NCBI GenBank assembly: GCA_944387205.1
Contig: CALXDZ010000055.1
Coordinates: 1 to 53,164 of the forward strand
Direction: 5' to 3'
Origin: an uncultured Oscillospiraceae bacterium
GTDB lineage: Bacteria; Bacillota; Clostridia; Oscillospirales; Oscillospiraceae
Length of the DNA: 53,164 bases
Shown here piece after piece: positions 23,224 through 47,026 of the stretch (its first letter is position 1; the number at the start of each line of letters is the position of its first letter). Below the pieces are notes generated by a model. It worked only from the letters and a program-made list of their open reading frames with translations. It was not told where the DNA came from and did no database searches. The position numbers and the translations under genes were made by a program.

Positions 23224-23958
23224 ATGAAAAAAGTGGCGCTGGTGACCGGTTCCTCCCGGGGAATCGGCCGGGCGGTGGCCGCCCGTCTGGCCCGCAGCGG
23301 CTGGGCCGTGGGCATCAACTATGTCACCCACCGTCAGGCGGCGGAGGACTTGCGGGACACCCTGATAGGCGAGGGCTGCCAGGCGGCGGTCTATCAGGCG
23401 GACGTGGCCGACCGGGCGGCGGTGGAGCAGATGGTCCGGGCCGTGGAGCAGGACCTGGGGCCGGTGAGCCTGCTGGTCAATAATGCGGGCATCGCCGGGC
23501 AGATGCTCTTTCAGGACATCACCGAGGAGCAGTGGCGGCGGTACTTCGCCGTGAATCTGGACGGTGCCTTCCACACCATCCAGGCGGTGCTGCCCCATAT
23601 GCTCCACGAAAAGAGCGGGTGCATCATCAACACCTCCTCCATCTGGGGCCAGCGGGGCGCCTCCTGCGAGGTGGCCTACTCCGCCACCAAGGCGGCGGTC
23701 ATCGGCCTGACCCGGTCCCTGGCCATGGAGCTGGGCCCGTCCCACATCCGGGTCAACTGCGTGGCCCCCGGCGTCATCGACACGGATATGCTCTCGGTGC
23801 TGCCGGAGGAGACCCGCCGGGACCTGGCGGAGCAGACGCCGCTGGGCCGTCTGGGCACACCGGAGGACATCGCCGCCGCCGTGGCCTTTCTGGCCTCCGA
23901 GGAGGCCTCCTTCCTCACCGGGCAGGTCATTACGCCGGACGGGGGGTTCATCGTGTAA
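23224..23958 (+). CDS. SDR-family oxidoreductase (FabG/YmfI-like)
   Basis: A 244-residue classical short-chain dehydrogenase: cofactor motif TGSSRGIG (8-15), NNAG, catalytic Ser in NTSS and Tyr/Lys in YSATK, C-terminal GQVITPDGGF. It resembles 3-oxoacyl-ACP reductases, but the true fab operon has its own FabG. It may be the elongation-factor-P 5-aminopentanone reductase type (YmfI) or another carbonyl reductase. The ATG at 23224 is preceded by AAAGGAG; a three-codon ORF (ATG GAG CGA TGA) overlaps the start by ATGA. Single gene with its own promoter. Confidence 0.85.
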   Translation: MKKVALVTGSSRGIGRAVAARLARSGWAVGINYVTHRQAAEDLRDTLIGEGCQAAVYQADVADRAAVEQMVRAVEQDLGPVSLLVNNAGIAGQMLFQDITEEQWRRYFAVNLDGAFHTIQAVLPHMLHEKSGCIINTSSIWGQRGASCEVAYSATKAAVIGLTRSLAMELGPSHIRVNCVAPGVIDTDMLSVLPEETRRDLAEQTPLGRLGTPEDIAAAVAFLASEEASFLTGQVITPDGGFIV

Positions 23959-23963
23959 GACTT

Positions 23964-23987
23964 CAAAAAAATGCCGGCATTTTTTTG
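23964..23987. terminator. Bidirectional A/T-flanked palindrome
   Basis: A perfect 24-bp palindrome: CA7TGCCGGCAT7G. It follows the SDR stop by 5 bp. The G/C part is short, so terminator strength is uncertain. Confidence 0.55.
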
Positions 23988-23998
23988 AGGGAGCAAGC

Positions 23999-24116
23999 AG
24001 GCCGCCGCAGCGCACTCGCTGCGCTCGCACGTTTGCGGCCTGAGCTGTGTTTTCTCCGAGGCGCATGTCCTCGGAGAAAACGGATCGGAATTGTTTCGCC
24101 GCCTGCGGGCGGCGAA
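23999..24116. repeat. Multi-hairpin dispersed element, copy 1 (C-B-A on the plus strand)
   Basis: Three adjacent stem-loops. C (23999-24041, 43 nt) starts AGGCCGC and ends GCGGCCT, with a G/C-rich imperfect inner stem. B (24049-24081, 33 nt) has arms GTTTTCTCCGAGG/CCTCGGAGAAAAC. A (24095-24116) has arms TTCGCCGCC/GGCGGCGAA. C is almost identical (one difference in 43) to 29532-29574 in the groES-groEL gap, where B has the same 33-nt length and the same 7-nt spacing to C but different arm sequence that still pairs. The element is non-coding and lies between convergent genes. Confidence 0.8.
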
Positions 24117-24289
24117 CTCTGCGAGGCGTGTCCTGCGGGGTGCGAAACCCCACGGGCGGCGAACTCTGCGAAGCAATATCCTGCGGGGTGCGAGGCCCTG
24201 CGGACGGCAAACTCTGCGAGGCGTGTCCTGCGGGGTGGGAAATTCTGCGGGGTGCAAAGCCCTGTGAGGCCCGTCCTGCGGGGCAGTAG
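24106..24289. repeat. 48-bp imperfect tandem repeats, about 3.9 units
   Basis: Units begin at about 24106, 24153, 24201 and 24248 (last one partial), each 47-48 bp. They have a conserved core CTCTGCGAGGCGTGTCCTGC followed by GGGGTG. Each unit also has weak internal half-repeats. The first unit grows out of hairpin A of the element at 23999-24116. Several frames stay open across it because the unit is a multiple of three, but none has a ribosome binding site. Confidence 0.75.
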
Positions 24290-24300
24290 CAGAGACGCAC

Positions 24301-29446: not shown

Positions 29447-29463
29447 ATCCCGCGGCACTGATT

Positions 29464-31263
<1,800 letters not shown>

Positions 31264-46688: not shown

Positions 46689-47026
46689 AGTGTACCTCCG
46701 AATTTGAATGCAAGCCGCTCCGCCCTGGGGCAAAGCGGGAAACACAAGTCATTTTTCTCCGTCGGATCTGCCTTCGACAAATCCAGAATTTCCAATCATT
46801 TTCGCCGCGACATGTGCGTGGCAAAAATGCATCGACTCAGCCGCCTTGGGCGGCGTTCATCAGTGACCGATGTCACTGGTGGTGGGAGAGGTCGAGGGGA
46901 AAGCAGCGAAACGCCGCCTGTGGCGGAAGAAGTGAGCTGCTTTCGAGGCAGCGGCACGATTGCCGGCCCCAACGGGGCTGGGAATCGCAATGCCGCAACG
47001 GTGCCAGTCTGCTCCCCCTCGCGGTT
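46689..47026. repeat. Structured 338-bp gap in the fab operon with a partial third copy of the hairpin element
   Basis: No gene. Plus-strand hairpins: B-like 46798-46828 (ATTTTCGCC/GGCAAAAAT, loop containing CATGTGCG), A-like 46840-46854 (GCCGCC TTG GGCGGC), 46861-46878 (CAGTGAC CGAT GTCACTG), and a nested one about 46902-46943 (AAAGCAGC/GCTGCTTT outside, CCGCC/GGCGG inside). Further G/C-rich stems lie in 46945-47010. B and A have the same order and similar spacing as in copy 1 (23999-24116). The C module is not recognisable. The operon is otherwise tightly packed with 4-bp overlaps, so this looks like an insertion. Confidence 0.6.

Follow-up and report, generated by a model that had tools for sequence, protein, structure and literature searches.

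The window, i.e. the whole stretch of 53,164 nt from an uncultured Oscillospiraceae bacterium analysed here, carries three copies of a hairpin array: copy 1 (23998-24116, + strand) behind a fabG-like gene, copy 2 (29463-29575, reverse strand) between groES and groEL, and copy 3 in the fab operon. Their parts, named D, C, B and A in the orientation of the element, are listed below (bit scores of hairpin B refer to the covariance model R1, see further on).

23963..23988, + strand: copy 1, hairpin D (TCAAAAAAATGCC/GGCATTTTTTTGA), a few nt 3' of the stop codon (23956-23958) of the fabG-like gene
23998..24042, + strand: copy 1, module C of type 1, hairpin with the conserved core CGCACTCGCTGCGCTCGCACG
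24049..24081, + strand: copy 1, hairpin B, 13 pairs, loop CGCATGT; 53.5 bits
24095..24116, + strand: copy 1, hairpin A (TTCGCCGCC/GGCGGCGAA)
24117..24127, + strand: copy 1, conserved 3' tail CTCTGCGAGGC
29463..29483, - strand: copy 2, hairpin A, adjoining the groES stop codon
29492..29524, - strand: copy 2, hairpin B, loop TACACGC and A.A mismatch (- strand reading); 62.9 bits
29531..29575, - strand: copy 2, module C of type 1, 42/43 identical to copy 1
about 29586..29611, - strand: copy 2, hairpin D (AAAGGGGGAGC/GCTCCCCTTT), 5' of the groEL ribosome-binding site
46764..46784, - strand: copy 3, weak A-like hairpin
46798..46828, - strand: copy 3, hairpin B in the fab operon, A.C mismatch and loop CACATGT (- strand reading); 51.4 bits
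46840..46854, - strand: copy 3, C-type-2 hairpin C2 (GCCGCC/GGCGGC)
46858..46881, - strand: copy 3, C-type-2 hairpin C1 (CACCAGTGACATCGGTCACTGATG on the - strand)

For copies 1 and 2, the observations behind the original prediction were reproduced: the C modules are identical in 42 of 43 positions and lie in opposite orientation, C and B are separated by 7 nt in both copies, the arms of B differ between the copies yet are complementary in each, and hairpin A follows B (24095-24116 and 29463-29483). The predicted layout A-B-C is right for the modules but falls short of the full extent, as a further hairpin D precedes C. Likewise, the partial copy described as B plus A at 46798-46854 does contain B (46798-46828), but its supposed A (46840-46854) is a C-type hairpin, and the A-like hairpin lies on the opposite side of B (46764-46784). 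In fact, copy 3 carries a C module unlike that of copies 1 and 2 (46840-46854 and 46858-46881), which we designated as type 2; hairpin D of copy 2 is of the sort usual in type 2. Copies 1 and 2 make up the inverted pair I3 (84 nt, 80%), third among the 25 inverted pairs listed; the two ranked above it lie inside fabG-like genes, judged by coordinates. The core pattern of C (≤3 mismatches) occurs twice in the window versus 0 times in 100 shuffles. Hairpin D of copy 1 appears similar to the end hairpin of IS1182-type ends. Furthermore, in a relative (genome G017) a tail related to that of copy 1 continues into a terminal CTTTTTCGACAAGCTG, which is missing from copy 1; copy 1 is apparently truncated at its 3' end. 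By eye, an A-like unit (GGGCGGCGAACTCTGCGAGGCGTGTCCTGCGGGGTG) is seen several times with drift after copy 1 (24095-24290), followed by a terminator-like hairpin.

The covariance model of hairpin B (R1) was built from 23 sequences, and the scores of the window hairpins (62.9, 53.5 and 51.4 bits; E 4e-12 to 2e-9) are those of three of its own building sequences. A covariance-model search of this kind, suggested in the original prediction, did reveal further copies: six in the own genome, up to 30 per genome of the same genus and 59 in a genome of another family (G042), all of these counts being lower bounds, because candidates were only partly scored. Matches at E≤0.05 were present in 29 of 60 genomes, namely the own genome, 26 of 36 of the same genus, G042 and, weakly, G054. 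Across the order, 22 of 295 sampled genomes had matches at E≤1e-6 (15 in one family, 4 in a second, 3 in a third), again as lower bounds with strict filters and 20 candidates scored per genome. An exact B-hairpin pattern retrieved 82 stretches from a collection of 84,980 genomes, from which records close to the own genome may be missing; all 82 are titled Clostridia, Oscillospiraceae, Ruminococcaceae, Oscillibacter or Dysosmobacter. A DNA search with copy 2 matched 16 of the 60 genomes, some weakly in apparently coding DNA. The exact B pattern also matches two contigs of the viral_contigs set (L219, L220), which may be prophage or host fragments. No publication describing these repeats was found by title or abstract start, though ISfinder-type descriptions may exist.

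One hundred distinct copies were compared in the D-C-B-A orientation. Besides B, which is common to all of them by construction, hairpin A is present 3' of B in most copies, and the stems of D and A are variable yet paired. Module C is of at least three types (type 2 in 37 copies, type 3 in 31, type 1 in 25; 7 copies are without type). The loop of B is conserved (CG-YRCAYGY-CG), and 78 of 99 copies have an A.C mismatch beneath it. The element is short, occurs in many copies (up to 59) and, judged from its length, has no protein-coding capacity. In G042 (L077-L096), further intergenic repeat modules (e.g., CAATTCCCACGCGGTC...) were noticed by eye in long hairpin arrays around the element.

In the 23-sequence alignment of B, 97.5% of the pairs are formed versus 74.8% in shuffles, and 57 cells show double changes versus 18.9 in shuffles, whereas slid controls fail; the sequences are related, so these figures are no probability. 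The original prediction read such compensatory change as selection on structure. This is partly right, but palindrome correction or structure-dependent transposition could do likewise at the DNA level. The covariation, the conserved loop and the folding z-scores (-2.97, -3.83 and -2.31) would also suit an RNA module, i.e. a structured 3'-UTR or intercistronic element whose fold is selected in mRNA (stability, processing, attenuation) and which spread or was inherited with its host genes. Selection for a fold in a single RNA strand would be expected to leave more G-U than A-C. Within B, with the usual A.C position left out, G-U indeed exceeds A-C (26 versus 5), 22 of the 26 being at the outermost pair; the position left out is itself A.C in 78 of 99 copies, which speaks against an RNA. 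Outside B, 376 distinct hairpins contained 3406 Watson-Crick pairs, 44 G-U, 58 A-C and 107 other mismatches, whereas 20 distinct predicted tRNAs of the same loci contained 383 Watson-Crick pairs, 34 G-U, 3 A-C and 4 others. Note that the tRNA stems were predicted with ARAGORN, a program tolerating G-U, which somewhat inflates this contrast, while our hairpin caller penalises G-U and A-C equally. The non-B hairpins come from a region reaching about 110 nt upstream and 135 nt downstream of B; some may belong to the host. They were counted after removal of repeated ones (a first pass before removal was mixed). Since the non-B stems, unlike the tRNAs, show no G-U excess, the RNA explanation is weak. 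The complementarity of the stems is probably kept at the DNA level, by hairpin recognition or palindrome correction. Rfam searches of the window and seven loci returned only tRNAs and a neighbouring RNase P above the gathering score, which likewise does not favour an RNA family.

The main support for an RNA module is the orientation of the element. Among copies with a gene called within 400 nt (codon model seeded with the window genes), the upstream gene is in sense in 65 of 69 cases for genus relatives and the window (65:4) and in 51 of 57 for genome_contigs copies (51:6); six copies of this family (family I) and one genome_contigs copy without recognisable motif are omitted from these counts, and G042 was counted apart (5 sense, 1 antisense), because the codon model performs badly there. 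Furthermore, the centre of B lies 97-116 nt 3' of the sense stop codon in 34 of 100 copies, and therefore the element starts almost at the stop codon in these. One copy sits between nrdD and nrdG. This sense bias is not accounted for by a palindromic target and counts against the transposition model that we favour below.

The gap between groES and groEL allowed comparison of one orthologous site. Of 41 GroEL matches, the best 30 were inspected and two proved incomplete, leaving 28 same-genus loci (including L303, which resembles a different gene pair). R1 elements are present in seven of these, the own genome included, in antisense orientation in G000, G011 and G034 and in sense orientation in G007, G025, G062 and G014. 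In 12 loci the gap measures only 21-84 nt and is without element, and the nine others contain 102-351 nt of other sequence with no R1 match. Here, modules A and B of G000 and G011 resemble each other, but their C differs. The site has therefore gained an element, or seen it inverted, on more than one occasion. The three antisense copies also argue against an RNA module, as do the patchy distribution and the target duplication described in the following. On balance, the RNA option of the original prediction retains its strong sense orientation but is weakened by the base pairs outside B, and we regard it as unlikely.

In G017, 14 of 15 distinct copies have both flanks, and 12 of these 14 have a local terminator-like hairpin on one side and a second copy of it on the other (duplicates of, e.g., 33 nt, perfect, around L018 and 30 nt around L030). 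By their position and an often following T-tract, the duplicated hairpins appear to be terminators of the respective genes. At ≥85% identity, duplications were found for 12 of 105 copies of family I, 10 of 68 genome_contigs copies of family I and 11 of 25 copies of a second family (family II, see below), i.e. for 33 of 198 evaluable copies versus 1 of 5947 mismatched-flank controls (1/2996 for family I, 0/2951 for family II). The 198 copies are what is left of 216 after omission of 18 with too little flank, and one omitted genome_contigs copy looks duplicated. All 12 duplications among 110 family I copies belong to a single genome, G017; none was detected for the three window copies or for any of the 37 copies typed as type 2. 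For direct duplicates, of which there are 30, the centre falls no more than 4 nt from the dyad in 25, and the length differs from that of the hairpin by at most 5 nt in 24; over all 30, duplicate length correlates only weakly with hairpin length (r = 0.23), which was not used as proof. The distance between the duplicated hairpins is 186-207 nt in family I (299 nt in a single case) and 151-168 nt in family II. CRISPR repeats are duplicated in a like manner, and a Cas1-like integrase was hence considered until the IS1182 ends came to light. Other interiors (about 220 and 125 nt) are present between perfectly duplicated hairpins at L107:178-455 and L213:300-467, possibly representing a third family, and at L228 (G017:C41, about 95908) a solo 3' end (hairpin A and terminal repeat) occupies the place of a terminator beside another hairpin.

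The least decayed copies terminate in inverted repeats that resemble CAGRCTGTCGAAAAAG...CTTTTTCGACARYCTG. In the same genus, IS1182-family insertion sequences have these ends as well. Family II was found by following these ends in G017: its interior (GGGAAGGAAG...AACCCAGGAAGGG) is unrelated and its ends are the same, both G017-type family I and family II ending in sequences like CAGRCTGTCGAAAAA. Family II copies L229-L231 likewise lie between duplicated hairpins (further loci are L238-L255), and family II matches are present in 22 of the 60 genomes with up to 26 copies, none of them in the own genome or in G042. Several G029 contigs begin or stop inside a family II element, which suggests recent identical copies. 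Such shared terminal inverted repeats were not seen in the window copies or in type 2; the ends there have degraded or differ, those of type 2 reading AAGGGGGAGC.../...CTAGCCCCCTTCC.

The motif CAGVYTGTCGAAAA (≤1 mismatch) occurs 21 times in 18 of 40 loci picked for holding IS1182-family matches, abutting a hairpin in 18 of the 21 cases. It is absent from 42 GroEL/Y1_Tnp control loci (163 kb), and contigs bearing the element contain it 7 times in 592 kb. For four pieces of transposase next to such ends, the best-scoring NCBIfam family is IS1182 (NF033551), with scores under the cut-off for the whole protein since they are incomplete; they also match Pfam DUF772 or DDE_Tnp_1_6. At L292, an IS1182 end meets a family II copy at the AT-rich hairpin of the latter, apparently a nested insertion. 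Hairpin targeting without sequence preference holds for the duplicated copies and for most IS1182 ends found; it leaves unexplained why type-1 and type-2 copies lie right after stop codons. Four IS1182-like copies with the end motif on both sides (L263, L265, L286, L288) have unlike hairpins on the two sides, a finding not accounted for by a simple duplication model. A search for IS1182 transposases gave no match in G000, G017 or G042, the latter two being rich in copies, and, by eye, transposase presence does not follow copy number over the 60 genomes.

The original prediction also considered a REP-like element, i.e. one of the REP/BIME type whose mobility depends on a RAYT (Y1, HUH) transposase that works on hairpins in single-stranded DNA. 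REPs too are short extragenic palindromes with many copies at gene ends (as far as described in PMC3733652), and Y1_Tnp is encoded in 25 of the 60 genomes, the own genome among them. However, no Y1_Tnp match was found in G042 (59 copies) or G017 (15 copies), and there is no GTAG/CGTC tag beside B, the flanks of which read nGAGAnGT and nAnTTT (consensus of 23 sequences). Terminal inverted repeats and a target duplication of 20-40 nt are likewise unlike REPs, as far as these are described (PMC3733652). This explanation was rejected for the missing tag beside B and the missing Y1_Tnp matches in G042 and G017; it is largely refuted and in our view very improbable.

A further alternative needs neither transposase nor selection: replication slippage or template switching would duplicate the terminators, and quasi-palindrome correction would produce the covariation. 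Palindromes are sites of replication stalling, the symmetry of G-U and A-C outside B fits such correction, and at four loci of both families (L221, L244, L143, L161) the flanks match as inverted rather than direct copies, which also counts against the transposition model. Slippage does not readily account, however, for precise element ends common to two families with different interiors, for the duplication in 12 of 14 G017 copies, or for the same ends bounding IS1182 elements. We consider it improbable.

The element is thus probably a non-autonomous, MITE-like hairpin array of Oscillospirales moved by a hairpin-duplicating transposase of the IS1182 type. The mobile-element option of the original prediction agrees with the many copies, the patchy spread and the presence and absence at an orthologous site, and relatives have both transposon-like ends and target duplication. 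An IS1182-type enzyme is suggested by the identical ends and the hairpin target. In the proposed mechanism, an IS1182-type DDE transposase would act in trans, may recognise its target as a cruciform and would join the element at both feet of a hairpin, typically a terminator. Gap repair would then duplicate the whole hairpin, giving the order terminator, element, terminator, and later the copies would decay, losing ends and duplication as in the window. Classification as MITEs is well supported for the relatives; the window copies would belong here as well, and both the type-1 copies 1 and 2 and the type-2 copy 3 may have arisen by the same route. They fit older members, copy 1 lacking the terminal 3' repeat and none having a duplication. 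The type-2 copy is tied to the family indirectly, through the shared B-A core only.

A broader reading can be put forward tentatively, with somewhat less than even confidence. Structure-guided transposition would be order-wide, with at least two unrelated mini-elements with IS1182-type ends inserting by DNA shape alone at terminator hairpins and duplicating the entire hairpin, whatever its sequence. The elements might in turn be landing pads for more insertions, because they are themselves hairpin arrays; intergenic arrays would grow and become more diverse by further insertion, their stems would stay complementary by DNA-level forces, and the covariation would imitate RNA. The model favoured above in itself offers a simple account of the intergenic repeated hairpin arrays found in gut Oscillospirales that are uncultured, and it hints at a safe-harbour strategy, the 3' ends of genes being the harbour. 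It also holds a warning for RNA discovery: covariation is strong here and the stems outside B lack a G-U excess, so that mobile DNA could be mistaken for regulatory RNA if pair conservation alone is considered.

Compared to known systems, the element is a lineage-restricted MITE-like family with an unusual, hairpin-duplicating insertion. Modularity is known from BOX elements (boxA-B-C). The pneumococcal BOX elements are also described as structured, intergenic small repeats with many copies (PMC3049150), but they belong to another lineage. The description of prokaryotic MITEs in a review (PMC10969869) fits in that they are short, non-coding, intergenic and multicopy and have terminal inverted repeats in common with a resident insertion sequence; our element differs in its multi-hairpin interior with covarying stems and in a hairpin-defined duplication of about 20-40 nt rather than one of short fixed length. 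A text search of this review found no mention of IS1182. There is also a likeness to IS1272 of the IS1182 family, which is reported to recognise stem-loops, including terminators, without sequence preference and to delete the hairpin (PMC5678879, PMC4923244). The ends shared with IS1182 elements of the genus and the hairpin target, often a terminator, agree with this. However, IS1272 and TnSha1 delete all or part of the hairpin, as far as described there, whereas in our clear cases it is duplicated and no transposase gene is present; instead of a deleted target without duplication, we found the hairpin duplicated in 33 of 198 copies. Whole-hairpin duplication is undocumented in the passages on hairpin-targeted transposition at our disposal, and our loci offer natural evidence for this predicted outcome: in an alternative model of Wan et al. 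2017, attachment at the 5' feet yields two copies of the complete stem-loop, and this is what the G017 and family II sites resemble.
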